Below, piece by piece: positions 2,704 to 17,191 of a DNA stretch of 58,553 nt (within the stretch, counting starts at the first letter, position 1; every line of letters starts with the position of its first letter). The stretch is from Clostridiaceae bacterium. GTDB lineage: Bacteria > Bacillota > Clostridia > DSM-8532. The notes below the pieces were generated by a model. That model did no database searches. It was not told where the DNA came from and worked only from the letters and a program-made list of their open reading frames with translations. The position numbers and the translations under genes are program-made. Location: contig DULR01000054.1 in the NCBI GenBank assembly GCA_012840245.1, positions 1 through 58,553 of the forward strand, given 5' to 3'.

Positions 2704-3027
2704 CTAATGCTTATTGTTTTCCCTGGGGCATTCAACTGTACCGTCTGATTTTATCGCGGTATAAATCAGTCCCGAGCAATTCGGCATTGACTTAAGATAG
2801 CCTCCGTCAACAAGAACTTGTACGGTTTCAGGATATGAACCGTTATCGTTCTTATATTCCTCGGCGGCTAAACGAATCACTTTCTGATTATGAAGGCAGG
2901 CGCTTTCAGCCGCCTTTTCCTGAGTATTAATATATATAGGGATTGCTATACCGGCAAGAATAGCAATTATAACTATAACTATCATTAACTCTACAAATGT
3001 GAAGCCTTTATCATCGTATTTCTTCAT
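2704..3027 (-). CDS. type IV pilin-like protein, short
   Basis: 107-residue prepilin. The leader MKKYDDKG is followed by the class III cleavage site and the conserved FTFVELMIVIVIIAILAGIA helix with Glu5. The rest is a compact globular head with two cysteines (ACLHN, PNCSG) that could form the D-region disulfide of a pseudopilin. PilD (16364-17191) would cleave and methylate it at the cytoplasmic face before assembly. A ribosome site AAAGAGG lies 8 bases before the ATG. It is the last gene of the T4P locus and is separated from the next pilin by a strong hairpin. Whether it is a major pilin or a minor GspG-type subunit cannot be decided from sequence. Confidence 0.85.
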   Translation of the reverse strand: MKKYDDKGFTFVELMIVIVIIAILAGIAIPIYINTQEKAAESACLHNQKVIRLAAEEYKNDNGSYPETVQVLVDGGYLKSMPNCSGLIYTAIKSDGTVECPRENNKH

Positions 3028-3054
3028 ATCGAGCCTCTTTATAATTCTAAAATG

Positions 3055-3078
3055 ATAGGCAGGGTTTGCCCTGCCTAT
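3055..3078 (-). terminator. intercistronic hairpin between the two pilin genes
   Basis: Perfect 10-base-pair stem ATAGGCAGGG/CCCTGCCTAT with a 4-base loop, just downstream (minus) of the 3119-3520 pilin. The following T-tract is interrupted (TCATTTTAG), so it may act as a partial terminator or as a stabiliser of the upstream pilin mRNA, allowing different levels of the two pilins. Confidence 0.55.
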
Positions 3079-3118
3079 ATATGGTGTTAATAATCATTTA
3101 TAGTTTTAAAAAAACATA

Positions 3119-3520
3119 CTAATTTTCCCAAGTGACTGGCAACGATTTAACATCTCCGGTAAACCAAGTACCAGTATTTGAACCCCTTTTAGCTACAGCT
3201 CTATATGGTGATGATGCAGTTCCATCTCCTGTAATTTCATATGTTACACCATCAGGACCAACTGGCCACGATTGTAAATAGGTACCGACCAAATTGCCTG
3301 ATGAACCATGTGTAGGTTCCTTTGTTGAATTGGTAGAAAATTGCATAATTGCACCGTCAATTATTCTTAAGTTTGCTTCTACAGCTCTACGGTTTGCATT
3401 TGTTGTCACGGAATTATAAACCGGCACAGCAATAGCGGTAAGAATTCCAATGATAACTACCACTACCATGAGTTCAACCAGGGTAAAACCCTTTCGACTT
3501 TTCATAAAAGACTTCAACAT
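3119..3520 (-). CDS. type IV pilin, probable major pilin
   Basis: 133-residue prepilin with leader MLKSFMKSRKG then FTLVELMVVVVIIGILTAIA, Glu5 present. The following amphipathic helix (VYNSVTTNANRRAVEANLRI) and a small Ser/Thr/Gly-rich head are typical of Gram-positive PilA subunits. A TTG five codons upstream is in frame, but GGGAGGG sits between the two starts, correctly spaced for the ATG at 3520. The gene has its own extended -10 promoter, consistent with high expression relative to the assembly genes. The head lacks cysteines, unlike its neighbour at 2704. Confidence 0.88.
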   Translation of the reverse strand: MLKSFMKSRKGFTLVELMVVVVIIGILTAIAVPVYNSVTTNANRRAVEANLRIIDGAIMQFSTNSTKEPTHGSSGNLVGTYLQSWPVGPDGVTYEITGDGTASSPYRAVAKRGSNTGTWFTGDVKSLPVTWEN

Positions 3521-3578
3521 AAAATACCCTCCCAAAAATTTAATTACTGGTCTTATTTCGACACGTAATCATATAATG

Positions 3579-3607
3579 ATTATACCACACAATTTAGTTT
3601 TTAAAAT
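3579..3607 (-). promoter_or_regulatory. candidate promoter of the major pilin gene (extended -10)
   Basis: Minus strand TGGTATAAT gives a TGn-extended -10 (hexamer at 3579-3584). The region where a -35 would lie is AT-rich without a consensus match, which extended -10 promoters tolerate. Predicted transcription start is near 3572, leaving about 50 bases of leader before the ATG at 3520. Confidence 0.55.
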
Positions 3608-3656
3608 ACAATTTACAAAAAATCGGAAATCATATTGCCCATTCATTCATCGATGC

Positions 3657-6551
3657 TTACCTGGTTCTTACGCTTATCTCGTTGCTTGGTCCGGATAAGT
3701 TCCCTTCTGCATCAACAGCTCTTACATAAAACCTGTAATTTGTATTGCCACTTAAAGATGAAACTCTGCATGAGGTATCAGTTACAGTCATTCTGTAATC
3801 ACCGTTGACATATACCTCATATCCTGCAACAGAGAAATTGTCACTGGAAGCATTCCAGCTCAAATCTACATAATTCGTGCCTCTTCCTGTATTCCTCAGA
3901 TTGGTGGGAGCCGTGGGCGGCTGGCCATCCTTTAAAGGATTACCGGCAACATCGGTCAGATTATTTAATACAAGGGTATTATTACTTAAATCAATAGTTT
4001 CACTGAAAACCAGGGTTACAGTCTTATTGTTATTCCTTGTTGTAACACTGGTCGGAGTCAATGTTCTGCCCGACTCTATGATTATGATACTGTAATTCGA
4101 CAGAGTTCTGATTTGGGTGTCTTCCATCTCCTCACTGAAGGTTAAAGTGAGATTTCTGTCGTTGCTGCCAACAGTTTTAGATATGAGGTCCGGTGGAGTG
4201 GTATCCTTTTTGATATCATAATCGATACCATTGGGGATCGCCACATCTCCGGCATATATTTGTCTTACTGCACCTTTTGATATGGATAGCTTTTTCTCTG
4301 CCCCGTTCTTAACCTGGTAATCAGTTGCATATGGCGATCTGAGACTGATAAGCAGGTATTCACCCTTTGATTTGTCTATAGAAGCATTATTTATTGCCTT
4401 TCCGTCGAAGGATATCCTGGCTGCCGACGTAAAATTCTGGAGATAAAACGGCATATCCATAGTATTCAAAGGCTTGCTGAATTTAACCTTTATGGTTTCG
4501 GTGGATATAAATTCAGCAGATTCGATGTCCATGCCAAATCCGGGACCGAGTATTATTTCCTGGAAGAGTGTATCAAATGAGCCTTCTGACTTGTTCCATG
4601 TCCTGAGTCCTAACATTGATCCTCCTGACCAGTAGCTGTCTGTACCCATTTTTTTGCCGGTAAAGGTCTTTGTGCCTGTTTTTCTACCGGATGCATCATA
4701 TACATCCATCGTATAAGAGCCAAAATCACCGAACCACATTTCATTGGAGCGGTTACCATTTTCATCGATGATTGTTGCTTTAAAGATCAGGCTGCCGTCA
4801 TTCTGGATCTGTACAACAATTTCAGTAAAATACCGCCTGTTCCATTCGGGATTTCCCTGATAATCTCCGCCTGTCCATCTGAATCTATCATTTCTGATAT
4901 CAGAAGGCCTGTAAATACCATTGTTGGTCAATCCATGGCTGGTACTGGGATTATGGTCGCCGTTCTCGATCTTTCTTACCAGAAAACCTCCGGCACCGGG
5001 GTCAAACTGGAACATATAGCCCGAATCCCTGTTATTGTTGTTCCTGTTTATAGTTCCGTTGATAAGAACCCCATAGCCGCTTCCGCCTCTTACCTGCGCG
5101 TCAACGGTGATGCTGTAGCTTTTTGTATCAGCAACATATTCAGATACGTCTTTGGATATATGGGTGCCGCCATTGGCAACAGCCGGATTGTATGCGTCTG
5201 CTCCGTTCGTAATGGTCAGGTTGAGATCTTCAGTATCGGGAGACAAAACGGATTCGACGATATAATCAAGACGCCTGAATACTGATGACACAAAACCTGC
5301 CGGCTTGTCAGGATCATTCTCTGCGTAAATGTCATCAATAAACTTCTTCCAGAAAGGATTGCCGATTATAGGAGGATGAATATGCTTAGGTGTGCTGAAA
5401 TAATAATTCTCGGAAGAAATGCCGCTAATTGAAACAGGTTTGACACCGAATCTGACCCATAAGCCCGATTTGCCGGTCGGGACGATATCCCTTAATGTGG
5501 AAAAAGCCATTGGTGATGAAAAATCTTCGGATTCCGACCATTGCCAGATATATTCGGAAGCTCCTTCACTGCCGCAGCCATTGGATATATAATCGTATTC
5601 CCCATGCAGGTTAGAATCTTCGTATGGGGTGATGCTTCCGTCACTGTTTTCGACAATTATCCTGACACTCGCTGCAGAAGGAGGCATGGTGGCTTTTGTA
5701 ACAGTTATAATATAATCGGCCGTAGACCCGTCCTCGGCAGTTACTGTATACGTTTTGGGTGTAGTGAAATTGACCGGCCGATCATTAGGATACTGTGGTA
5801 TGCCATCCAGCGAGATGGATTTTCCTATATAGCTGAAATGAGGTATAAGGCTGGACAGATCTGCTTCGCCAATTATATATATGTTGACGTTATACTCATA
5901 TTCTTCAACATAAACAATATAGGAAGCGCTCAGGGAAGGATTGTATTCTTGTTTGAAACCGAACTCCAGCAACCTTTTTTCACTGTCTGCATGTGAATAG
6001 CAGATAACAGGTCCGGATTCAAGCCCATCCTCAGTCAGGCCCGAGTCGTCGATGGTCCGTCCTTCGGGAAAATTCAGAATCTGAACCTCCGAGCCTGATG
6101 AAAAGGACATCGTTCCCGATCTCGCAGTGATGTTAAAGCTTAAGACCGAATCCGAGCCAATGCTCTTGCTGAACTCAAGGGTCGTGAACTCAGCATCAGA
6201 ATTGATCCCTCCAAGCGCATCCACCAGGTTTCCTTTTCCTTTATAATGCTTAAGGATTCCGTCAGATATATAAATATACTTTCTGTCTTCATTAAAGCTT
6301 GAAGGCAGGTACGGAAGGATAGTGACCTCATTTGCGTAACGCAGTTCCCTGCTGATGAATTCTGACGCAAACTGTACGTTCTCCTGGGCAATGTAACGCA
6401 TTTCTCCGCGTTCAAAGGTATTTCCTCCAAAGGATAACAATTCAAAGCCAAGGGATACAACAATAATGAGTATGGTCAGAGCGACAAGCAGCTCGATCAC
6501 ACTGAAACCGCTTTTATTTATTCTGTTTTTAATGTTATCTTTGCATTCCAT
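3657..6551 (-). CDS. giant PilW-like minor pilin with Ig-like and fibronectin III domains (putative pilus-tip adhesin)
   Basis: 964 residues, several times longer than ordinary minor pilins. The N-terminus is a class III prepilin signal (leader of about 15 residues, then FSVIELLVALTILIIVVSLG), so PilD should process it and it can enter the pilus. After a PilW-like segment (to about 200) comes a beta-domain ending TYTVTAEDGSTADYIITVTK (about 235-290). A central region (about 400-690) is rich in Trp, Gly and Asn, like laminin-G/concanavalin-type sandwich folds. Two Ig-like domains with KVKFSKPL and TLTFSEEM motifs follow (about 690-880), and a C-terminal fibronectin III domain starts at PPTAPTNLRN (about 880-964). 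It lies directly behind pilV/pilX-like genes. Inference: surface binding at the pilus tip. Confidence 0.85.
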   Translation of the reverse strand: MECKDNIKNRINKSGFSVIELLVALTILIIVVSLGFELLSFGGNTFERGEMRYIAQENVQFASEFISRELRYANEVTILPYLPSSFNEDRKYIYISDGILKHYKGKGNLVDALGGINSDAEFTTLEFSKSIGSDSVLSFNITARSGTMSFSSGSEVQILNFPEGRTIDDSGLTEDGLESGPVICYSHADSEKRLLEFGFKQEYNPSLSASYIVYVEEYEYNVNIYIIGEADLSSLIPHFSYIGKSISLDGIPQYPNDRPVNFTTPKTYTVTAEDGSTADYIITVTKATMPPSAASVRIIVENSDGSITPYEDSNLHGEYDYISNGCGSEGASEYIWQWSESEDFSSPMAFSTLRDIVPTGKSGLWVRFGVKPVSISGISSENYYFSTPKHIHPPIIGNPFWKKFIDDIYAENDPDKPAGFVSSVFRRLDYIVESVLSPDTEDLNLTITNGADAYNPAVANGGTHISKDVSEYVADTKSYSITVDAQVRGGSGYGVLINGTINRNNNNRDSGYMFQFDPGAGGFLVRKIENGDHNPSTSHGLTNNGIYRPSDIRNDRFRWTGGDYQGNPEWNRRYFTEIVVQIQNDGSLIFKATIIDENGNRSNEMWFGDFGSYTMDVYDASGRKTGTKTFTGKKMGTDSYWSGGSMLGLRTWNKSEGSFDTLFQEIILGPGFGMDIESAEFISTETIKVKFSKPLNTMDMPFYLQNFTSAARISFDGKAINNASIDKSKGEYLLISLRSPYATDYQVKNGAEKKLSISKGAVRQIYAGDVAIPNGIDYDIKKDTTPPDLISKTVGSNDRNLTLTFSEEMEDTQIRTLSNYSIIIIESGRTLTPTSVTTRNNNKTVTLVFSETIDLSNNTLVLNNLTDVAGNPLKDGQPPTAPTNLRNTGRGTNYVDLSWNASSDNFSVAGYEVYVNGDYRMTVTDTSCRVSSLSGNTNYRFYVRAVDAEGNLSGPSNEISVRTR

Positions 6552-6577
6552 CGGTATTCTCCATCACCTGATCCATG

Positions 6578-6928
6578 TCATCGCTTTGGAACGAATGCAC
6601 TGTAAGTAACCCTGTTGTTCCCTGTTCCCTTTTCGACACTGATCTTCCTGCCAGGTACTTCGATCGTTGTCACATCATCATTTTCATCGACAAAGTAAAT
6701 AGTCAATACTTCTTCGTCTTCTGTCACTCCTGATGAAAAAAGCTTTTCGATCTCTCCCTGGGCAATATTGGATGATTTGTTCTTCTCACCTGCTGAAAAA
6801 ATGCTCGTATAAGAATTGGTCAAAAGCGGAATGAACCCTGCTGCAAGTATGAACAGCAAGGCAGCCGCCACTAAAAGCTCAGTTAATGAAAATCCACCAT
6901 CATATGCTTTTTTTCCCGGTTTAGGCAT
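6578..6928 (-). CDS. PilV-like minor pilin
   Basis: About 116 residues with a prepilin cleavage motif (DGG then FSLTELLVAAALLFILAAG, Glu5 present) and a small head containing SSNIAQGEIEKLFSSG, a pattern seen in PilV/GspI-type subunits. An ATG eight codons further upstream overlaps the PilX-like gene. The start chosen is one base after that gene's stop, which suggests translational coupling. It belongs to a three-gene minor-pilin set (PilX, PilV, PilW order) that primes fibre assembly in other T4P systems. The function here is inferred from family and order. Confidence 0.75.
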   Translation of the reverse strand: MPKPGKKAYDGGFSLTELLVAAALLFILAAGFIPLLTNSYTSIFSAGEKNKSSNIAQGEIEKLFSSGVTEDEEVLTIYFVDENDDVTTIEVPGRKISVEKGTGNNRVTYSAFVPKR

Positions 6929-6929
6929 G

Positions 6930-8039
6930 TCACTTCCACTTTCCTTTTTCATACCTTATTGTAACAGTTTCTTCGGTAATACCTTCAAAGTATGATTCGG
7001 TGATAAACCCAGCATCGTTTATATATGTTACATCAGTATTGCCGCTGTTTGTTACTTCTCCTGCTATCATTGCGCCTGTAAAAGAATCGTTCCCATGCAG
7101 TCTGACTTTGGCACCGGGAGCATACAGAAGGCCCCTGAAGCGATTTACATCAAATATGCCGGCATTAGCTCCCGCCGGAGGCATAAGAACAAGGAAGGAT
7201 TCAATAGGCAAGGATTCATTGGAAATGTTAATTTCTCCGTGATTGCTCGAGGTTTTTAAATTTTTCGCATATAAAACCAGTCTGCCGGTGCCCTGTATTT
7301 TTATCTCACCGGAAACGATTATGTTGTTGGCAACTACGGTGAGGTCCCGGCCGGATAAATTAAACTGCAGTATGCCATCCTTATCGACATTTATTTCATC
7401 ATAAAAACCGTCGGTATCTATATATCTGATCGTATTTTTTTCAACTGCCAGCTTAGTGGAGCTGTTGTTTTGCGGAAAAATAACGCCTGGGTAAGTCCTT
7501 GGGGAATTTTCGATAAATTCGGGTCTGGATGATCCGTTAATGGTGATTTTGCCACTGGATTCCAATGAGCCTATTATATCCACATTGCCGTTCAATGTTA
7601 TGGAACCGGTTGCGAATATTGCGTTTTTAAATATATTCGGCGGCATTCCCGTATCAATTGTTTCTTTGATTTCAAGAGCTGCAGAAGCTGTTTCACCTTT
7701 GAAATAACCAACCGATTCTATTGTGATAACCGAACCTTTCCTGCGCAATGTAACTGTAAAAGAACCGTCTTCGATATTAACAGGAACAGAGGCAATATCC
7801 AGTATTTTGTCTATTTTGTTCTTCAGGGCGGCTGTATCGGTCTCATTGATCATATGTGAATAAATGGCTTCAGCGCCTGAGCGCGCTAAATAATAGGCCT
7901 GCTTCTGCCTGGAGGACTTGTCGGCCTGTTTGACGCTATTGATGCCATATTGCCATATTACTGCTCCCAGTACGGTAAAAACGAATATCACTATCAATGT
8001 GATAATCATCGCCATACCTTTTTTGGATCTTCTTATCAT
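6930..8039 (-). CDS. PilX-like membrane protein with a beta-helical, polymer-forming-type head
   Basis: 369 residues. The N-terminus MIRRSKKGMAMIITLIVIFVFTVLGAVIW followed by YYLARSGAEAIYSHM is characteristic of PilX/GspK-type minor pilins, which have a KG-MA site instead of the GF-E motif. From about residue 140 on there are repeated short strands (ITLNGNVDIIGSLESSGKITING, and INISNESL), like the right-handed beta-helix of bactofilin/polymer-forming surface domains. It precedes the PilV-like gene with a one-base gap. Likely a component of the pilus-tip priming complex; the beta-helical head is an unusual addition and may contact the cell wall or a surface. Confidence 0.7.
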   Translation of the reverse strand: MIRRSKKGMAMIITLIVIFVFTVLGAVIWQYGINSVKQADKSSRQKQAYYLARSGAEAIYSHMINETDTAALKNKIDKILDIASVPVNIEDGSFTVTLRRKGSVITIESVGYFKGETASAALEIKETIDTGMPPNIFKNAIFATGSITLNGNVDIIGSLESSGKITINGSSRPEFIENSPRTYPGVIFPQNNSSTKLAVEKNTIRYIDTDGFYDEINVDKDGILQFNLSGRDLTVVANNIIVSGEIKIQGTGRLVLYAKNLKTSSNHGEINISNESLPIESFLVLMPPAGANAGIFDVNRFRGLLYAPGAKVRLHGNDSFTGAMIAGEVTNSGNTDVTYINDAGFITESYFEGITEETVTIRYEKGKWK

Positions 8040-8059: not shown

Positions 8060-9757
8060 CTACACTACGACTCTCAGCAATTCTTCCATCGATGTCAAAC
8101 CTTGTTTTACCTTATTGAGACCGTCCAGTCTTAAAGTGGACATGCCTTCCTGAATTGCCAGTTCCCTGATTTCATTCGTTGATGAGCAGCTGAGGATAAG
8201 TTTCTGCATTTTTTCTGAGACTCTCAGGAATTCAAAGACTCCCTTTCTTCCCCTATACCCGGTGTTATTGCAGGATAAACAGCCAGTGGCCTTATATAAT
8301 GTCACCGAATCCTCGTGCGGCTCAAGAGGAAAATCAGGAGCAATGCCCAGGATCTCTTCACGGCTCAATGTGTAAGGCTTCCGGCATGATGGGCAAAGTA
8401 GGCGTATGAGTCTCTGGGCAATGACGCCCACCAGGGATGAAGCTGTCAGGAATGGCTCAACTCCCATCTCTCCAAGCCTTGTTACAGCTCCGGGAGCATC
8501 GTTCGTATGCAGGGTCGAAAATACAAGATGACCGGTAAGCGCTGATTCTACTGCTATCTTGGCTGTTTCGCGGTCACGTATCTCGCCCACCATAATGATA
8601 TCAGGATCGCTTCTTAAAATGGACCGCAGGCCTGAAGCAAAGGTCATCCCGGCTTTGGAGTTCATCTGTATCTGGTTGATCCCTGCCATTTTCCTTTCAA
8701 TGGGATCTTCAAGAGTGATGATATTTTTATCGGGTGTGTTGATCTCAGCCAGAGTAGCATAAAGGGTCGTGCTTTTACCGCTTCCGGTAGGCCCTGTTAT
8801 AAGGATGAATCCATATGGAAGATGCATGGCCTCCTTGTATCTCTTAAGCTGGTTCTCAGGGAACCCAAGCTCCTCGAGGGTTATCATCCTGCTGCTGCGG
8901 TTTAAAAGCCTCAGTGTCAGTTTTTCACCATAGGCTGACGGAAGAGATGCAACACGGATGTCGATGGTCTTATCCTCTACCTTGAGGGTGATACGGCCAT
9001 CCTGCGGTATGCGCCTTTCGGCTATATCCATTCCTCCCATGACCTTTATTCGGGAAGAAACCAGAGGATGAAATTTCAAAGGCTGCTGCATTATCTCATG
9101 CAATACGCCATCGATCCTGTAACGGACTCGTGTGAACTTCTCCTGGGGCTCAATATGTACATCGCTTGCTCCGACCTTCACAGCCTGGTTTATGATCTGA
9201 TTGACCAATAAAACAGCAGGTTTTTCATTTATTGAATAATCCTCATCGGAGGTTGCCGCAGCTTCTTCGAAATCTTCCTCCGGCTGGTCGTCGAAATTCT
9301 TGCTTACATTGGTGAACTGATCCAATACGGCAGCCAGTTCACGATCGGGAACAACGACCGGCTGGACCTCAAACCCGGTCAGCAGTTGGATATCATCGAT
9401 CGCGATAATATCATTGGGATTCTGCATCGCAACCAGGAGCTTGTTGTCTTTCATCCCGATGGGGAGAAGTTTGTATTTATTCGCGATCTCAGGGGTGATC
9501 AGATTGGCGCAGGCCATATCGATGCCTGTTTCGTTTATGGACATGAATTGAAAACCCGACTTTGCAGCCATTGCACGAGCAATACACTCTTCACTGCAGC
9601 AGCCAAGATCGATAAGACACTGGCCAAGCTTCGCCTTCTGGCCTTTCTTCCTTCTCTGGGCCTGAAGTTCCAGCGCTTTTTTGATCTGCTCTTCGGTAAC
9701 TATCCCCATTTTTACCAGTTGTTCACCCAGGTAGCCTGCCTCAGAAATGAGTCCCAT
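8060..9757 (-). CDS. pilB: type IV pilus assembly ATPase PilB
   Basis: 565 residues. Cytoplasmic hexameric GspE-family ATPase that powers pilus extension through PilC. An N-terminal MshEN/T2SSE-N domain (about 1-150) may bind cyclic di-GMP in relatives, which would fit the HD-GYP protein at 52935. Walker A is GPTGSGKSTTLYATL, the Asp box and Walker B include DIIMVGEIRDRET, and the His box is HLVFSTLHTNDAPG. A four-cysteine zinc motif (CPSC...CLSC) is typical of PilB and absent from PilT. A start three codons upstream is rejected because AAAGG would abut it; the ATG at 9757 has correct spacing. First gene after pilMNO in the assembly set. Confidence 0.96.
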   Translation of the reverse strand: MGLISEAGYLGEQLVKMGIVTEEQIKKALELQAQRRKKGQKAKLGQCLIDLGCCSEECIARAMAAKSGFQFMSINETGIDMACANLITPEIANKYKLLPIGMKDNKLLVAMQNPNDIIAIDDIQLLTGFEVQPVVVPDRELAAVLDQFTNVSKNFDDQPEEDFEEAAATSDEDYSINEKPAVLLVNQIINQAVKVGASDVHIEPQEKFTRVRYRIDGVLHEIMQQPLKFHPLVSSRIKVMGGMDIAERRIPQDGRITLKVEDKTIDIRVASLPSAYGEKLTLRLLNRSSRMITLEELGFPENQLKRYKEAMHLPYGFILITGPTGSGKSTTLYATLAEINTPDKNIITLEDPIERKMAGINQIQMNSKAGMTFASGLRSILRSDPDIIMVGEIRDRETAKIAVESALTGHLVFSTLHTNDAPGAVTRLGEMGVEPFLTASSLVGVIAQRLIRLLCPSCRKPYTLSREEILGIAPDFPLEPHEDSVTLYKATGCLSCNNTGYRGRKGVFEFLRVSEKMQKLILSCSSTNEIRELAIQEGMSTLRLDGLNKVKQGLTSMEELLRVVV

Positions 9758-9796
9758 AATAACCATCCTTTTATCTTTATCGTTAATACGTATCGA

Positions 9797-10321
9797 TTAT
9801 TTGAAGAAAGCTTTTGCAGTAACGGAGGCATTTACGGTACCGTCAGATCCTTCTCCGTCTATCTGAATTCCGTCGATCCTTATAAGCCTGTCACCATTTG
9901 AGACTCTTTTAATAAAATCCACCAATGATGCATATTTCCCTTTGAACATAAGCTGTATCGGCATTTCGTTCATATTTCCGTTTGTGGTCCTTTTTTCGAA
10001 CCGGATATGCACGAAATCAGTGCCTTTTTCTCTTGCCAGTTGATCAATGTATTCGATCAACCTGTCTTCTTCAGGCGACTTAGGAATTTGCTCCGATAAA
10101 ATCACATGGGCTTTTTCAAGCTCAGGCCTGATATGCGTCAGTTTCTTAAGTTCATCAAGATATGCTTTCCTTTCACTGAGCATGGCTTCTTCCGATCTTA
10201 TCCGCTCTGTTGTTTCATTGATGCTCTTAATTTTGACAAAGTTGAAAACCATCAGAAGAATGGCCACAATGCCTGAAAGAAGCAGCAATGTATTTCCTGT
10301 TGTATTTTTCCTGTCTTTCAT
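9797..10321 (-). CDS. pilO: PilO-like pilus assembly protein
   Basis: 174 residues: a short cytoplasmic N-terminus, one membrane helix (TLLLLSGIVAILLMVFNFVKI), a coiled coil (about 35-75), then a small ferredoxin-like extracytoplasmic domain with the PilO-type pattern MPIQLMFKGKYASLVDFIKRVS. It would pair with PilN to link cytoplasmic PilM to the extracytoplasmic parts. The start is two bases after the pilN stop, with TTGGAGG provided by the end of pilN, so the two are translationally coupled. Confidence 0.88.
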   Translation of the reverse strand: MKDRKNTTGNTLLLLSGIVAILLMVFNFVKIKSINETTERIRSEEAMLSERKAYLDELKKLTHIRPELEKAHVILSEQIPKSPEEDRLIEYIDQLAREKGTDFVHIRFEKRTTNGNMNEMPIQLMFKGKYASLVDFIKRVSNGDRLIRIDGIQIDGEGSDGTVNASVTAKAFFK

Positions 10322-10323
10322 AG

Positions 10324-10899
10324 CTATCTGACCTCCAACGGGATTTTATATCCTGGACCCTGAAGTATAAGAAAGCTTAATTCAAACTCTACTGAATCAT
10401 AATTACCGGACAGGGAGGAAAACTTGCAGTTTATCTCTCCGATCCCTTCTGTATCACCCAGCTTTTTGAGCCAGCCGCTCACCGCACCATGATCTTTACC
10501 GGTCCCAAGAATGACGCATTCTCCGGAGCTTCCCTGATAATTAAATTTCATACTCCTCAGAATCACCGATTCAGGGACAGAATTTCCTATGGATGATATA
10601 AGCAGGCTCCAGTCAGGATTCGATCCTGCTGCTGCAGTTACCTCCTTGCTCAATACTCCAACCTCATCATAGAAAATCTTGATATCACCCATTTTTTCGA
10701 TCTGGGCTTCAACTGCAGCATATTCAGCCCTTATTCCGTTCAGTTCGGCTGTCTTCCCCGAAGCATATACAGAAAGTATGGTATATGCCAGAAAAAGCAC
10801 ACCCATTATCCCTGTGGCAAGCAAGAGACCGATGTTCTTTTTCTTTGCTTTCAGGTTATGGATCTTGTATTCATATGGCAACAGGCTGATACTGTACAT
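10324..10899 (-). CDS. pilN: PilN-like pilus assembly protein
   Basis: 191 residues. A short cytoplasmic N-terminus SISLLPYEYK carries the INLLP-like motif that binds PilM. Then follow one membrane helix (IGLLLATGIMGVLFLAYTILS), a coiled coil, and an extracytoplasmic fimbrial-assembly domain (VPESVILRSMKFNYQG). The upstream ATG in the same frame contains the GGAGG used for the ATG at 10899, so the shorter start is chosen. It lies between pilM and pilO in the conserved order. Confidence 0.88.
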   Translation of the reverse strand: MYSISLLPYEYKIHNLKAKKKNIGLLLATGIMGVLFLAYTILSVYASGKTAELNGIRAEYAAVEAQIEKMGDIKIFYDEVGVLSKEVTAAAGSNPDWSLLISSIGNSVPESVILRSMKFNYQGSSGECVILGTGKDHGAVSGWLKKLGDTEGIGEINCKFSSLSGNYDSVEFELSFLILQGPGYKIPLEVR

Positions 10900-10938
10900 A
10901 TTGACCTCCATCCGGCCTTTGACCGGTAAATAATTTTT

Positions 10939-11907
10939 TCAGGACAGACCTCTGAGAGCCAGGCTTATGCATGCTGTATAGTCTGAGGATCTGAAACTTC
11001 CTGATTTGCTTTTGCCTGTGTGGTTTTCAAGGTTTGTATATGGAGCGGGAATGCTGACAGCAAGCCCTGTCAACTCTCTCAGTCTTGCGGCGACCTGATT
11101 TTGCTGTGCTCCGCAGCCAAGCAGATAAAGGGTTTCTATTGCTTCACCGCTCTGCATCATGTAATAGCTGACCGATGATTTTATCTCACTGAACAATATA
11201 TCTGCTATAACATTGTTTACATGATCCTGAGCTTCACCGGTTTTATATTCTGACCATGAAGGCCACTGGCTGAAATTCACCGATCGGGCAATGACCAGCT
11301 CTCCTTCTCTGAAAATAAGGATATTCCCGATGTCATGGTTGAAACAGGCAATAACGAATGTTCCGTTAGGATTTCCTATTAAAGCTGCGCGGCCTATGGC
11401 CAGCATTGTCGAGTCTATTTCTTTTATCGATGTATTCGCATTGGTCAAAGCTTCTATGAAATCATTGAGCATCTTTTTTCTGGCAGCCACCAGAACGACA
11501 TTAATAAACTCGCCTTCCTCGGTTTTTTTGTCACTGACCACCACATAGTCAAGTTCAAGTTCTTCAAGGGAGACCGGTATATAATCCTGAGCCTGGAAAC
11601 GTATCATGCTCCTTATTTTGTCTTCCGGAACCTTTGGGAAGGACGCGAATCGCACAATGACATCCTGATTGTTGACTCCCAGAATTATATCCTTGCTTTT
11701 AAAGCCGTTTTCCTTGATCAGTCTCTCAAGACTTGCTCCAAAAAGCTTCGTATTTGCTATCCGGCTTTCTTTTACTATACCGTCGGGCAGTTTTACTCTT
11801 CCCCAGGCCGAAACAACAGGTTTTTTGACAGTCCCCCGCAATTCGACCGCCCTGAGCTCCTGTGAATCCAATTCGATCCCTATAATGCTTTTACTGAAAA
11901 AACCCAT
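10939..11907 (-). CDS. pilM: PilM, actin-like pilus assembly ATPase
   Basis: About 322 residues of the actin/FtsA superfamily; cytoplasmic, bound to the PilN N-terminus. The N-terminus MGFFSKSIIGIELDSQELRAVEL is the phosphate-1 region. The middle contains KSKDIILGVNNQDVIVRFASFPKVPEDK and the C-terminal phosphate-2-like segment is ETLYLLGCGAQ. An upstream in-frame ATG adds 15 residues that relatives lack. The ATG at 11907, preceded by ACGGGG, fits the family N-terminus better, although its ribosome site is modest. The gene begins within 50 bases of the pilC stop. Confidence 0.9.
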   Translation of the reverse strand: MGFFSKSIIGIELDSQELRAVELRGTVKKPVVSAWGRVKLPDGIVKESRIANTKLFGASLERLIKENGFKSKDIILGVNNQDVIVRFASFPKVPEDKIRSMIRFQAQDYIPVSLEELELDYVVVSDKKTEEGEFINVVLVAARKKMLNDFIEALTNANTSIKEIDSTMLAIGRAALIGNPNGTFVIACFNHDIGNILIFREGELVIARSVNFSQWPSWSEYKTGEAQDHVNNVIADILFSEIKSSVSYYMMQSGEAIETLYLLGCGAQQNQVAARLRELTGLAVSIPAPYTNLENHTGKSKSGSFRSSDYTACISLALRGLS

Positions 11908-11952
11908 ACCATAAACCCCGTCTTTCTGGTTATTGATAGCAAATAATATCAT

Positions 11953-13161
11953 TTATATGCCCGATGATGTAACAGCAGAGAATATCGGTGAATAAAGCGC
12001 GATCAGCATCCCGCCGATAAGTATTCCTATCACAATCAATGCTATAGGCTGGATCAAAGCCTGAAGGCCTCTCGTAGTGGCTGCAACTTCCTGTTCATAG
12101 AATTCAGCTACCTTGTCCAGCATTGAAGGCAAAGTGCCCGATTCCTCACCAACTGAAATCATGTGGGTCACCATGGGAGGGAATACATCGTTCTCCTCAA
12201 GTGTAGATGCAATGCTTTTCCCTTCCTCGATCCTTTTTGCAGCAAGCTGGACAGCTTCGTTAAGCAGGTCGCTTCCAGAAGTGGGACCGGCGCTCTCCAG
12301 AGCCTGTACGACAGAGATCCCGCCTTCCAGAAGGGTAGCAAGAGTCCTCGTAAAACGGGCTATGACCGATTTTAAAATGACCGGCCCGAAAACAGGCATC
12401 TTTAATTTGACCCGTTCCCAGAGATCATGACCGGTACTGCTTCTGAAGAATAATACAAAGACCGCAGCAACGCCTGTGGCAGCAAGTATCCATACAGGAT
12501 AATCCTTCCTGATGGATGCCGACATATTGAATATGATCTGTGTAACAGCATTTATTTCAACGTTCTCAGGCAATGAGCCCTGAAATACAGGAACAAGGAA
12601 AACCAGCATTACAATAAAGATCAGTAACGCAAATATACCTATGGTCCTTGGATACGATATGGCGGATTTGACCTCATCCTTTAAGATCTTTTCCTTCTGA
12701 AGCTGCTCTGAAAGCCTCAGCAACGACTTTTCAAGATTTCCTCCCACCTCTCCGGCTCTGATCATCGATATGTACAAATCTGAAAAGATGTGGGGATACG
12801 CGCTGAAGGCATCAGTCAGATTCATACCACCCTCAAGATTCCTGGCTATATTTCCAAGCGCTGAACGAAGAGAAGGATTCTCCGATTGCCTGCTGAGCGT
12901 ATTGATGGCTCTTGTAACAGGAATGCCGGAGCCGATCATTGCTGAAAGCTGTCTGCTGAATAAAGCAAGATCTCCCAGTGTAACTTTCTTTTCCATGGAG
13001 AGAAAACTGCTTTTTTTCCTTGGCTTCATCTCTTTAAGCTCGACAATGGAAAGGCCCATGCTGCGAAGTTTTTCAACAGCCTGAGGAATATTGTCCGAAC
13101 TTAATTGTCCCTTGATCGTCTGCCCTTGCTTATTTAAGCATTCGTAACTGAAGGATCCCAT
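11953..13161 (-). CDS. pilC: PilC, inner-membrane platform protein of the type IV pilus
   Basis: 402 residues of the GspF/PilC family. The N-terminal YECLNKQGQTIKGQLSSDN is the conserved opening domain. Two repeated four-helix cytoplasmic domains follow (LALFSRQLSAMIGSGIPVTRAI near 65; IARFTRTLATLLEGGISVVQAL near 265), with membrane helices at about 170-190, 215-235 and 370-395. It couples PilB/PilT ATP hydrolysis to pilin insertion or removal. GGGGAGG lies upstream of the ATG. It sits directly after pilT, a common order in Clostridia. Confidence 0.95.
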   Translation of the reverse strand: MGSFSYECLNKQGQTIKGQLSSDNIPQAVEKLRSMGLSIVELKEMKPRKKSSFLSMEKKVTLGDLALFSRQLSAMIGSGIPVTRAINTLSRQSENPSLRSALGNIARNLEGGMNLTDAFSAYPHIFSDLYISMIRAGEVGGNLEKSLLRLSEQLQKEKILKDEVKSAISYPRTIGIFALLIFIVMLVFLVPVFQGSLPENVEINAVTQIIFNMSASIRKDYPVWILAATGVAAVFVLFFRSSTGHDLWERVKLKMPVFGPVILKSVIARFTRTLATLLEGGISVVQALESAGPTSGSDLLNEAVQLAAKRIEEGKSIASTLEENDVFPPMVTHMISVGEESGTLPSMLDKVAEFYEQEVAATTRGLQALIQPIALIVIGILIGGMLIALYSPIFSAVTSSGI

Positions 13162-13176
13162 CAGTAACCTCCCCTG

Positions 13177-14274
13177 TTAAAAGAAACTGTTCTGCATGAG
13201 TCTTTCGACCTCTATCCTGTCGATACAGTGTTCCAGAACCGAATCCCGGCTTATTTTCCCCTGCTTGTAAAGCTTGACGAGAGCCTGATCCATGGTTTGC
13301 ATCCCCTGGGCATGACCGGTTTGTATCGATGAATACAGCTGATGCTCTTTACCTTCCCTTATCTGACTTCTTATCGCCGGTGTATCGACCATATATTCTA
13401 TAGCGGCTACTCTTCCCTTTCCGTCGATGGTCGGGACCAACTGCTGTGATATGACGGCCCTTAATGAGTTTGCCAATTGCTGCCTTATCTGCAGTCGTTT
13501 ATCATCACTGAACGAATCGATGATCCTCGTAATAGTCAAAGGAGCAGTTTGCGTGTGCAGGGTAGAAAGAACCAAATGGCCTGTTTCAGCAGCAGTCAGA
13601 GCAATGGAGATACTGTCCTGGTCCCTCATCTCGCCTATCATGATAATATCCGGGTCGTGTCTCAAAACGTGGCGAAGAGCTGATGAAAAGCTGTGTGTAT
13701 CAGTTCCCAGCTCTCTTTGCCGTACAGTCGACTTTTTATGTCTGTGAAGAAACTCGATCGGATCTTCGACTGTAACTATATTGCAGGCTCTGGTGCTGTT
13801 TATGAGGTCGATCATCGCGGCGAGGGTGGTCGATTTTCCGCTGCCTGTCGGACCGGTAACGAGTATAAGTCCTCTTGGAAGATCACAAAGTCTTTTTATG
13901 TCCTGCGGCAGTCCCAGTTTATCAAATTCGGGAATTACAAAGGGAACAGCCCTGAACACCGCAGCCAGAGTACCTCTCTGGAACATAACATTGCCCCTGA
14001 ATCTGGCGCATCCGGCTATCGCATACGAAAAATCCAGTTCCCAGTCCTGCTCAAGCCGTTCTTTCTGATAATCCTTCAAAAGAGACAGGATCATAAATTC
14101 CAGGTCATCCTGCTTCAGCGGCGGAGCCTGGATGGGCACCAGTTCGCCGTTGATCCTGATGCATGGAGACATCCCGACTACCAGATGCAGGTCTGAACCT
14201 TGTCTTTCGACGCATAGTTCGAGAAGCTGATCGATCGTAAAATCATAATCTGAATTTGTTACAGCAAAACGCAT
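13177..14274 (-). CDS. pilT: PilT, pilus retraction ATPase
   Basis: 365 residues, the usual PilT length. Walker A is GPTGSGKSTTLAAMID, Walker B region DIIMIGEMRDQDS, His box HLVLSTLHTQTAP. The C-terminus contains AIEYMVDTPAIRSQIREGK, matching the PilT C-domain. There is no zinc motif, which separates it from PilB. Its presence predicts retractable pili (twitching or DNA uptake). It lies 15 bases before pilC. The competence-type genes dprA and yifB are about 22 kb away and could use such pili for DNA uptake. Confidence 0.95.
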   Translation of the reverse strand: MRFAVTNSDYDFTIDQLLELCVERQGSDLHLVVGMSPCIRINGELVPIQAPPLKQDDLEFMILSLLKDYQKERLEQDWELDFSYAIAGCARFRGNVMFQRGTLAAVFRAVPFVIPEFDKLGLPQDIKRLCDLPRGLILVTGPTGSGKSTTLAAMIDLINSTRACNIVTVEDPIEFLHRHKKSTVRQRELGTDTHSFSSALRHVLRHDPDIIMIGEMRDQDSISIALTAAETGHLVLSTLHTQTAPLTITRIIDSFSDDKRLQIRQQLANSLRAVISQQLVPTIDGKGRVAAIEYMVDTPAIRSQIREGKEHQLYSSIQTGHAQGMQTMDQALVKLYKQGKISRDSVLEHCIDRIEVERLMQNSFF

Positions 14275-14304: not shown

Positions 14305-15708
14305 TTAGTTTGAAATACCGTCCAGCAAGGGATCATCGATGTATTTCACATAATCCTTGACTTTCTTGATGTTTTCGGAAGTTTCTTCAAGATACATTAT
14401 GTACAGGTAGTCATTGTCTCTTGATACATTGTTGGTTATTGTAAAGCTGGTCTCAGGAATGCCTGTAAGTTCGGAAAGCAGTCTGCGCCTTTCGGCCAGC
14501 CTGTACATTCCTCCGGCAATGTCCGAATAATCTACGGGAACCTTGATTTTTTCAGACATCACATCAAGCTTGTTAATATGATTCAATACATAGAGCTTGA
14601 AATCTGAAGGACAATGCACTATAACGCTCCTGGAGAATTCAGGGTAATTCAGATAGTTGATTTCAACGTTGTAAAGACCAAGCTTGTCGAAACGGCTCTT
14701 CAGCTCCTGAGCCGTAATGTTGACCGTTTTGTATACAAAGAAGATGTTATCGTTGATGTGGTCCTTGATATCAAACTTACTTATTATACTTTTCGCCAGC
14801 TTTATAGAATCATCGCTTCCGTTAAGCCATATGGTCTGAAGACTTCTTTCAAAGGTGACTTTCTGGATATCGGGAACCAGTTCATCCAATATTGGGATGA
14901 TTTCATCAACAGTAAGGTAATTCAGTTTGACAGCTGTAAAAGTTATATTTTCACCAAAGGCATTTTCAGGAATATCAACCTTCTGCTGGATGCCTTTGAC
15001 TTCGTTCAGCACCTTATTGCCTGCATATATCCATAAAGTCATCGGGTTCGATTCTATGACTATTCCCGGATCCATTCCCATCTGCTGCAGGATGTCATTC
15101 AATTGCCCAGCAGTGATATATGACAGTCTGACAGGCGCAAGAAGGTCTGAGCCGGCGCTTATATCCTCAGATACGTTTTCAGCTCTGTCAAGCATCGATA
15201 CAAGCTCGTTGACCTTGCTCAGATCCTGTGGCAAGCCCTGTATAAAAATAACTCTTTTGTTGCTGCTGAGGGTTACCTTCCTTACCGGGATACCCAGAGC
15301 GTCTATTTGCGAGGATATAACATCGGAATCTATGTACTTAAGAGAAAATTTAGTCAGAGAAAGCTTGTTGTAAAATTCCTTGTTCAGAGTATCTCTGGAA
15401 CCTACGATCAGAGTTCCCCCATCTTCGATATAATCCAGACCTGTGGAATTCAGCAGATATTCGAGCGCAGTCTCTGGTTTGACATCCTGTATGCTGAAAT
15501 TCACGCTCATCGGCTCGCTTGTGTAGATGATGTTTTTACCCATATTAACGGCAATAGCCGATAAAACATCTCTTATATCAGCTTCCCGCATATCAACGCT
15601 TATATTTTCTTCATTTGGCTCTGCGGCAGCATATGTGATCATGAAACATGACATTAACAACGAGCAGACCAAAAAAGCAGCAATTATTGCATAGACCTTT
15701 CTTATCAT
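14305..15708 (-). CDS. PilQ-like protein: STN plus ring-type domains, no secretin pore
   Basis: 467 residues from the ATG at 15708 (AGGAG upstream); an earlier in-frame ATG would overlap the PilP-like gene and hide the signal peptide. The signal is MIRKVYAIIAAFLVCSLLMSCFMITYAAA. A short secretin/TonB N-domain follows (DMREADIRDVLSAIAVNMGK; SVNFSIQDVKPETALEYLL). After it come several NolW-like repeats with the LKYIDSDVISSQI, LSYITAGQLNDIL, LNYLTVDEIIPIL pattern. The protein ends without the conserved secretin beta-barrel domain or its VPxLGDIPxLG signature. In a cell without an outer membrane it may form a wall-spanning collar. It is placed between pilT and a PilP-like gene, exactly where pilQ would be expected. 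Confidence 0.8.
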   Translation of the reverse strand: MIRKVYAIIAAFLVCSLLMSCFMITYAAAEPNEENISVDMREADIRDVLSAIAVNMGKNIIYTSEPMSVNFSIQDVKPETALEYLLNSTGLDYIEDGGTLIVGSRDTLNKEFYNKLSLTKFSLKYIDSDVISSQIDALGIPVRKVTLSSNKRVIFIQGLPQDLSKVNELVSMLDRAENVSEDISAGSDLLAPVRLSYITAGQLNDILQQMGMDPGIVIESNPMTLWIYAGNKVLNEVKGIQQKVDIPENAFGENITFTAVKLNYLTVDEIIPILDELVPDIQKVTFERSLQTIWLNGSDDSIKLAKSIISKFDIKDHINDNIFFVYKTVNITAQELKSRFDKLGLYNVEINYLNYPEFSRSVIVHCPSDFKLYVLNHINKLDVMSEKIKVPVDYSDIAGGMYRLAERRRLLSELTGIPETSFTITNNVSRDNDYLYIMYLEETSENIKKVKDYVKYIDDPLLDGISN

Positions 15709-15757
15709 ATTAATTTTCTCCTCTCCCAAAAGAAAATCAAATCCAGTCCTTAAGCAG

Positions 15758-16219
15758 TCAGCCATCCAAAGACAGAACCATTCTGTCTGTATCTGATTCA
15801 AGTGTTATCTGGTTTTTATCTATTTCGACGACCTTCCAGTCACTGTCGCCCAAAAAGTCTTCTTTTTCAACTATATATGAGTAGCTTCCCCATTTAACGA
15901 CAGCAGTTGGTCTAGACTTCGAATAGACCACTCCAACAAGTCTCATGGGCTCTGTAAAGGGATCTTTTTTTATATCTATATCATTGCTGTCGGAACGGAT
16001 GATTTGAGGCAATACTTCAACCTGCTGCTGGTTTGTATCGATCTGACCCGCAGTATTGGAGGGTACTTGTGAAACCGTGCCTTTCTCCTTTACTCCCCGC
16101 AGGTTGACAATGATCATAACGACGATCAATACGGCAAGTAAAGGCAGCAAAAATTTCAGAGATCTATTTTCATCGAAGAACTTTTTCAAAGCAGAATCAC
16201 TGTCTGATTTTCTGACCAT
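15758..16219 (-). CDS. PilP-like pilus assembly protein
   Basis: 153 residues: a charged cytoplasmic N-terminus, one membrane helix (FLLPLLAVLIVVMIIVNL), a flexible Gln/Asn/Ser linker, then a small beta domain. The domain contains DPFTEPMRLVGVVYSKSRPTAVVKWGSYSYIV and ends NQITLESDTDRMVLSLDG. This is the pattern of PilP/GspC homology-region domains, which dock onto secretin N-domains. It is directly upstream of the PilQ-like gene (49-base gap), so the two are a likely partner pair. AGGAAGGG precedes the ATG. PilP proper is a lipoprotein; this one is anchored by a helix as in GspC. Confidence 0.7.
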   Translation of the reverse strand: MVRKSDSDSALKKFFDENRSLKFLLPLLAVLIVVMIIVNLRGVKEKGTVSQVPSNTAGQIDTNQQQVEVLPQIIRSDSNDIDIKKDPFTEPMRLVGVVYSKSRPTAVVKWGSYSYIVEKEDFLGDSDWKVVEIDKNQITLESDTDRMVLSLDG

Positions 16220-16363
16220 AATTATCCCTTCCTGTTATAATAATCGACATGTCTTGTGTTGTAAAAATATGCAATATTATGACTATTATGAAAACAGTAA
16301 GTAACTTAATTTTATAACATTCTGCATCATCTGGCAAGAAAACCCTTAAAGCATACAGAATCA
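16220..16363 (-). promoter_or_regulatory. AT-rich gap with a possible promoter for the pilP-pilB block
   Basis: 144 bases between pilD and the PilP-like gene, the largest gap within the assembly block. On the minus strand TTACTT and CATAAT are 17 bases apart, a weak sigma-A-like pair. No hairpin with a T-tract was found, so read-through from pilD remains possible. Confidence 0.3.
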
Positions 16364-17191
16364 TCAATAGCAGATGCTCAAATACCATCTTAAAAACTGG
16401 TTGCCATATAATGCTGAGAACAAAGCTGCAGTAATTATGAACGGACCAAAAGGGATGGCGCTTTTTCTGTCCTTGATTTTAAAAAGTAAGAGTATAATAC
16501 TTGTAATACCACCCAACAACACCGAAATAACAAGGGTGAGCAAAGACAGCTTCCAGCCCAGGAACAAACCTATGGGCATAAAGATCTTCACATCGCCCAT
16601 TCCCATTGCCCCGTCGTTCTTGTATATGGCAAGACCAATGAGCGCAACAGCAAAAAGTATCAGCGATGATGAAAACATTCCTATCAATGGTGTGTACCAT
16701 AAAGCCGATTCATAAAGTCCGAAAGGTTTTATAAACACATGATATAAAAATACCGCCGCACCACCTATCAATCCGGACAAAACAAGGCCGTTCGGGATGA
16801 TCATATGCTGCAGATCGATGAAAAAAACAGGAATGAGTATCGTAAACAGCAGTATCAAACCTGCCGCTTCAATCGTAAAACCATATCTTAAGTATATGAT
16901 CAGCCATATGACTGAGGTGATCATCTCTACAACAGGATATTGGATCGAAACAGGTTCATTGCAATATCTGCATTTACCTTTTAGAAATATGTAGCTGAAA
17001 ACAGGAATCAGATCTTTGGCTTTTAAACGGTTTTTACATTTAGGGCAGCTTGACGGAGGATGAAGAACCGACTGCCCTAAAGGGATCCTGTATATGCATA
17101 CGTTCAAAAAGGAACCGAAGCAAAGTCCTGCAAGAAATACAAACACAGGAGCAAATATCCGGAACTCAGATGATGAAACATCTATCATCAA
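16364..17191 (-). CDS. pilD: PilD, prepilin leader peptidase / N-methyltransferase
   Basis: 275 residues, integral membrane aspartic protease that cleaves prepilin leaders and methylates the new N-terminus. The N-terminal domain begins LCFGSFLNVCIYRIP and has two zinc-binding CPKC/CRYC pairs in the cytoplasmic loop. Catalytic aspartates are in FFIDLQHMIIP and the GMGDVKI motif. About eight membrane helices. The ATG overlaps the stop of the AIR-synthase-like gene by four bases (ATGA), showing tight translational coupling with two genes of unknown role in piliation. Confidence 0.95.
   Translation of the reverse strand: MMIDVSSSEFRIFAPVFVFLAGLCFGSFLNVCIYRIPLGQSVLHPPSSCPKCKNRLKAKDLIPVFSYIFLKGKCRYCNEPVSIQYPVVEMITSVIWLIIYLRYGFTIEAAGLILLFTILIPVFFIDLQHMIIPNGLVLSGLIGGAAVFLYHVFIKPFGLYESALWYTPLIGMFSSSLILFAVALIGLAIYKNDGAMGMGDVKIFMPIGLFLGWKLSLLTLVISVLLGGITSIILLLFKIKDRKSAIPFGPFIITAALFSALYGNQFLRWYLSICY

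Follow-up and report, generated by a model that had tools for sequence, protein, structure and literature searches.

A pore-less PilQ partnered with PilP in the type IV pilus operons of monoderm Clostridia

The window, meaning the whole 58,553-nucleotide stretch of DNA that was analysed, contains a type IVa pilus (T4aP) operon in which the gene at the pilQ position encodes a PilQ-like protein that ends before the secretin pore. This protein, here called PilQn, is almost certainly a functional, PilP-partnered derivative of PilQ from which the pore is missing. Taken together, the evidence makes it probable that PilQn is a barrel-less PilQ orthologue working in the T4aP machine of a spore-forming monoderm bacterium.

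The pilQn gene occupies positions 14305-15708 on the minus strand and encodes 467 residues, starting at an ATG at 15706-15708. A longer mechanical open reading frame of 498 residues, beginning with TTG, overlaps pilP and was set aside, with the ATG at 15708 taken as the start. A Pfam search of the protein returned Secretin_N at E 2e-14; STN scored E 6e-6, narrowly missing the curated cutoff, and no secretin pore domain was found. An AlphaFold model built from a 42-row alignment (mean pLDDT 86, pTM 0.58) revealed a signal helix followed by an N0 domain and then by five domains of beta-alpha-beta-beta-alpha fold, the last ending at residue 458 of 467, and no barrel. The original prediction, made from the letters alone, of a signal peptide, an STN domain and several N-domain repeats that stop before any secretin barrel is confirmed. 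The domain count that it proposed to obtain by modelling is one N0 and five N1-type domains.

The signal peptide (residues ~1-29, 15622-15708, with the cleavage site placed by eye) is modelled as a hydrophobic helix at residues 2-22 followed by a low-confidence linker. The N0/STN domain (residues 36-104, 15397-15603) aligns in VIA-align with N0 of Neisseria meningitidis PilQ (4ar0), with a Z score of 9.7 and an rmsd of 1.8 Å over 78 residues at 27% identity. The N1-type domains, delimited by the model and by profile comparison, lie at residues 117-173 (15190-15360), 190-244 (14977-15141), 256-312 (14773-14943), 321-381 (14566-14748) and 386-458 (14335-14553), all on the minus strand. In structure comparison the domains other than N0 resemble secretin N-domains, the third matching those of 6ve2 and 5w68. 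Comparison of domain against domain by profile placed all five in one N1-type repeat family apart from N0; N5 matched N1 at 94%, and N5 and N4 gave no match. The fold class of the last domain comes from profile comparison and the model alone, because VIA-align barely covered residues beyond 383. This domain stands where the secretin barrel begins in PilQ.

The neighbouring gene, at 15758-16219 on the minus strand, encodes a PilP-like protein of 153 residues, for which the Pfam PilP match is weak (E 5e-4, below cutoff). Its model consists of a membrane helix (residues 19-41), a linker of low confidence and a beta domain that is modelled confidently (residues ~89-152). Among PDB entries the beta domain is closest to the HR domain of GspC in complex with GspD (3oss, TM 0.85), and PilP structures come next, confirming the HR fold and the earlier assignment of a PilP/GspC-like gene beside pilQn. 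The protein has the membrane-anchored N-terminus and the HR beta domain expected of a PilP, its anchor being a transmembrane helix rather than a lipoprotein. HR is the fold that binds N0, and as a PilP the protein would be predicted to bind PilQ N0 and PilN-PilO.

The order of genes on the minus strand is pilD, pilP, pilQn, pilT, pilC, pilM, pilN, pilO and pilB, then five pilin-type genes. Assignments were supported by Pfam matches for the prepilin peptidase pilD (16364-17191; A24_N_bact 5e-35, Peptidase_A24 4e-15), pilM (10939-11952; PilM_2 2.8e-24) and pilO (9797-10321; PilO 3.6e-16). The retraction ATPase pilT (13177-14274) was identified by a domain match and a family profile across loci, the platform protein pilC (11953-13161) by such a profile, pilN (10324-10911) by position and family profile with a weak PilN match (0.0014), and the extension ATPase pilB (8060-9766), which contains an MshEN domain, by a domain match. 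The pilin-type genes span 2704-8039 (2704-3027, 3119-3535, 3657-6551, 6578-6952 and 6930-8039), with N_methyl, GspG-like and weak PilX_N matches. The joint presence of pilB, pilC, pilT, pilM, pilN, pilO, pilD and prepilins is that of a T4aP operon, and the 174-residue PilO is small, as in diderm T4aP. A type II secretion system (T2SS) would have a GspD barrel and no PilT; here pilT is present and the barrel absent. At the end of the operon, 3657-6551 encodes a prepilin-like protein of 964 residues that contains an SWM-type repeat and, at its C-terminus, an fn3 domain, and that resembles a modular tip adhesin. The gene at 6930-8039, which lies between pilB and the pilins, encodes a weakly PilX_N-like protein with a DUF7305 domain.

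Relatives were collected from a scan of 85,000 species genomes. Pore-less orthologues were found in relatives of the window's organism (labelled Clostridiaceae and Thermoclostridium) and in Dethiobacter, Desulforudis, Desulforadius, Desulfoscipio, Desulfotruncus, Sporotomaculum, Heliobacterium, Heliorestis and Heliophilum. All of them stop no more than ~20 residues from where the query match ends; matches in the Halanaerobiales run 460-560 residues further, into the barrel. PilQn occupies the pilQ position in 37 genomes from several monoderm Firmicute lineages, so that the PilP-partnered, pore-less PilQ, first suspected from a single locus, emerges from the synteny search as a general module in Clostridia. 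It is nevertheless rare within the class, since the family was present in 18 of 391 evenly sampled genomes, which belong to four taxonomic families. pilP and pilQn are adjacent in nearly all loci. The usual order in Desulfotomaculum and Heliobacterium relatives is B-T-C-M-N-O-P-Qn, and its M-N-O-P-Qn portion equals the M-N-O-P-Q of pored operons in diderm Halanaerobiales, which places the gene where pilQ belongs in diderm T4P operons, as had been proposed. Within the order, this type of pilM was found in 18 genomes, with pilQn on the same contig in 14, on a different contig in two and missing from two. The absence from the last two is only apparent, as both contigs begin at pilT; this pilM type is accompanied by pilQn except where the contig ends at pilT. 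Pore-less operons were also seen on a contig of 3.9 kb binned with a diderm Fibrobacterota genome (L058) and on a contig labelled Sumerlaeota (L084). The latter clusters with Clostridia in the tree described below, and both are therefore probably mis-binned.

The homologues differ in how they could be anchored. LysM domains occur in 7 of 42 PilQn homologues, N-terminal to N0 in the examples examined, and in four of five Halanaerobiales PilQ proteins, of which the one studied closely has them C-terminal to the barrel. The diderm Halanaerobiales PilQ of L085 (5113-7776) and L102 (6396-8936) have LysM-type repeats that follow the barrel. In three genomes (L011 1480-3321, L014 988-2580 and L018 2-940), PilP and PilQn form one open frame with a membrane helix, the HR domain and N0, lacking any hydrophobic segment where the two proteins join. 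Three further PilQn frames (L077 9677-10810, L079 8887-9990 and L080 2216-3301) lack both HR and N0, and no pilP gene was found at these loci; HR and N0 are thus missing together, as an HR:N0 interaction predicts. At the start of these three proteins stand a hydrophobic segment, which may be a transmembrane anchor or a signal that is cleaved off, and a 'GDPF..P' motif like that of PilP. The observations that suggest a pairing of PilP with PilQ N0 are two patterns in the sequences, namely the natural fusions and this joint absence. The number of middle domains also varies, from a shortest homologue of ~360 residues to a longest of 662. An STN match at E 0.01 was obtained in only 27 of 42 homologues, and the last two domains are kept in all 42 that were aligned.

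The LysM-bearing, PilP-fused and N0/HR-less variants favour a membrane-docked stack of rings in the wall zone around the pilus base. In the mechanism we propose, which we regard as somewhat better than an even prospect, N0 of PilQn would bind the HR domain of PilP, itself anchored in the membrane, in the manner of the solved secretin systems, and the N1-type domains would assemble into stacked rings that encircle the pilus as it grows. The stack would serve as a collar, or as a conduit, across the thick peptidoglycan zone, with LysM giving some versions a grip on peptidoglycan, and the absence of the pore would reflect the lack of an outer membrane. Counting against this reading, the number of N1-type domains differs between homologues, and STN is matched at E 0.01 in only 27 of 42. 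Streptococcus sanguinis makes T4P without PilP or PilQ (PMC6916266), and a ring is therefore not mechanically obligatory in monoderms. PilQn could instead be an adaptor that extends PilP as a monomer or low-order assembly and either stabilises PilN-PilO-PilP or tethers the machine to peptidoglycan, and that does not encircle the pilus. The fusions and LysM variants speak of tethering rather than of ring formation, and diderm PilP does stabilise PilN-PilO (PMC6916266). However, five tandem ring-building N1-type domains are retained where simple tethering needs none, and a variable repeat number fits a stack of adjustable height, so we consider such an adaptor unlikely.

Estimates of dN/dS for pilQn were 0.055-0.154 in three pairs, approximate values given that dS is high or near saturation, and lie in the range of pilM, pilN and pilC. 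These ratios indicate purifying selection on pilQn. PilQn is a genuine protein family rather than a damaged gene. In the closest relative (L040 10001-11404, the same place as L003; 79% identity), pilQn contains one in-frame stop at about residue 161 and is otherwise intact, reflecting either a metagenome-assembly error or local decay. This stop and the missing pore itself are what a decaying secretin relic with little or no function would show. Such a relic is very unlikely in view of the selection just described, of an end point, positions and gene order conserved across several lineages, of the joint absence of N0 and the HR domain in one lineage, and of a conserved N1-type domain in place of the pore rather than ragged ends.

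PilQn was compared with the secretin families. In a profile search of PDB sequences PilQ ranked first (4av2, E 6.7e-11; 4ar0; 6w6m), with GspD behind. Alignment of the PilQn family with diderm Halanaerobiales PilQ by hhalign gave 99.4% over 349 columns, and the match ends where the pore domain opens. The N0 (STN) domain, at least one N1-type (Secretin_N) domain and the pilMNOPQ context of a PilQ are all present, and the secretin barrel (PF00263) is absent from both the protein and the genome. An independent STN protein, TonB/FecR-like or GspD-like, could in principle have been recruited to the operon, since STN domains occur in other families too and the weak NCBIfam scores for GspD and for PilQ are similar. 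With PilQ structures heading the PDB search, a profile match that spans the N-domain region of PilQ and a protein that fills the pilQ slot after pilP, this origin is highly improbable.

The host genome (2.9 Mb, 99.99% complete) was searched with profiles whose positive controls scored. PF00263 was not found anywhere in it, nor were Omp85 and LpxC, and Spo0A was present. The original prediction had noted no outer-membrane gene in view, a statement that now extends to the whole genome for Omp85 and LpxC, and it had named three findings that would overturn it: a secretin pore elsewhere in the genome, a frameshift cutting off a former barrel, and a diderm organism. A split or frameshifted secretin is ruled out by the genome without PF00263 together with the common end point of the orthologues, and a diderm host by the absence of Omp85 and LpxC and the presence of Spo0A. 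Among the 37 Clostridia-type genomes carrying PilQn, none had an over-cutoff PF00263 match and none an Omp85 match; both scored in three other genomes, those of a Halanaerobiales member, one diderm Bacillota and a Fibrobacterota bin. Three sub-cutoff PF00263 matches were recorded in relatives (L123-L125). The candidate at L123 1101-2060 proved to be a false positive, an ABC-type permease in which a VPVLGDIPVIGN motif that arose by chance scores weakly against the Secretin profile; the frames in L124 and L125 are similar in size. Heliobacteria and several Desulfotomaculum relatives stain Gram-negative, which would suit a hidden outer layer (an S-layer or cryptic outer membrane, for example) that PilQn would help to traverse as an ordinary secretin whose partner pore went unrecognised, but with Omp85 and over-cutoff PF00263 in none of the PilQn-carrying genomes searched and LpxC absent from the window's genome, we give this almost no credence.

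A tree was computed from concatenated PilM, PilC, PilN and PilO (67 rows) by a quick method. In this tree, which has some long branches, a branch with 99.7% SH-aLRT support sets all 40 pore-less operons together apart from the pored ones. A single change between pored and pore-less suffices on this unrooted tree. Because the root was not inferred, the tree does not decide between loss and gain of the pore. The suggestion of an evolutionary intermediate left after loss of the outer membrane therefore stands in part: the single split fits it, and the direction is undecided. Tentatively, at slightly less than even chances, an ancestral Firmicute may have lost its outer membrane, with PilQ losing only the barrel and its N-domain stack being kept and remodelled into a wall-spanning pilus collar. 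With similar reservation, the remodelling may have consisted of an extra C-terminal N1-type domain, N-terminal LysM and fusion to PilP.

In 2011 Imam et al. reported that the pil operons of Desulfotomaculum reducens and Pelotomaculum thermopropionicum contain PilQ homologues, and suggested horizontal transfer (PMC3244431). The passages of that work concerned with these genes name them PilQ or secretin homologues and do not describe a missing pore or anchoring variants; the genes, from the same bacterial group, probably belong to the PilQn family. According to Antunes et al. (2016, eLife), the absence of PilQ sets the pil clusters of monoderm relatives apart from diderm ones, and the way in which T4P pass through the thick monoderm wall is unclear (PMC5007114). 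Reviews state that PilP and PilQ are absent from Gram-positives or monoderms and build on this to argue about PilMNO function (PMC4471445, PMC6916266, PMC9765702), a statement with which PilQn and PilP in a monoderm contrast. No description of a pore-less PilQ family or general module was found in the open-access papers searched. The expectation that the module had not been described holds for the loss of the pore, the spread and the anchoring variants, in which the novelty of PilQn consists; Gram-positive PilQ homologues as such had been noted, as the passages cited above indicate. Conserved PilP and pore-less PilQ offer a concrete candidate for wall passage or anchoring in monoderms. PilQ has also served to argue that the last bacterial common ancestor was diderm (a use discussed in PMC8871954), and the N-domain-only PilQ of monoderms must be kept apart from pored PilQ in such reconstructions. 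If only the barrel was lost, the module would be a general, previously undescribed part of monoderm T4P and a molecular trace of outer-membrane loss, and a match to PilQ N-domains would be no proof of an outer membrane.

Among known systems, T4aP PilQ (N. meningitidis 4av2/4ar0; Halanaerobiales L085, L094, L098, L101 and L102) shares with PilQn the signal peptide, N0 and N1-type domains, the position after pilP and the pairing with an HR-domain PilP. PilQn differs in having an extra C-terminal N1-type domain instead of the barrel and a monoderm host, and LysM, where present, is N-terminal in PilQn and C-terminal in PilQ. In the GspC-GspD pair of the T2SS, the HR domain of GspC (3oss) resembles that of the window's PilP and N0 of GspD that of PilQn, but the window has a T4P operon with pilT and no GspD barrel. 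SpoIIIAG forms the ring of a monoderm sporulation complex and, like PilQn, for which a ring is predicted, has ring-building domains without an outer-membrane barrel; it belongs to another gene family and pathway and has neither N0 nor a PilP partner. A complete genome of the same family contains a different T4P locus (L130, G026:C1:1362000-1380000), in which no PilP or PilQ was found. Its PilB has 722 residues with an apparently duplicated N-terminal part, and a large protein at 14866-17094 is possibly similar to the product of 6930-8039 in the window. Conventional monoderm T4P, as in this locus and in S. sanguinis, have pilB, pilT, pilM, pilC, pilN and pilO, like the window, and no secretin; this arrangement without PilP and PilQ is the one usually described for monoderms (PMC6916266). 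PilO has 394 residues in L130 and 174 in the window. With both kinds of locus in one family, two T4P types occur there, and pilQn belongs to the diderm-like type.
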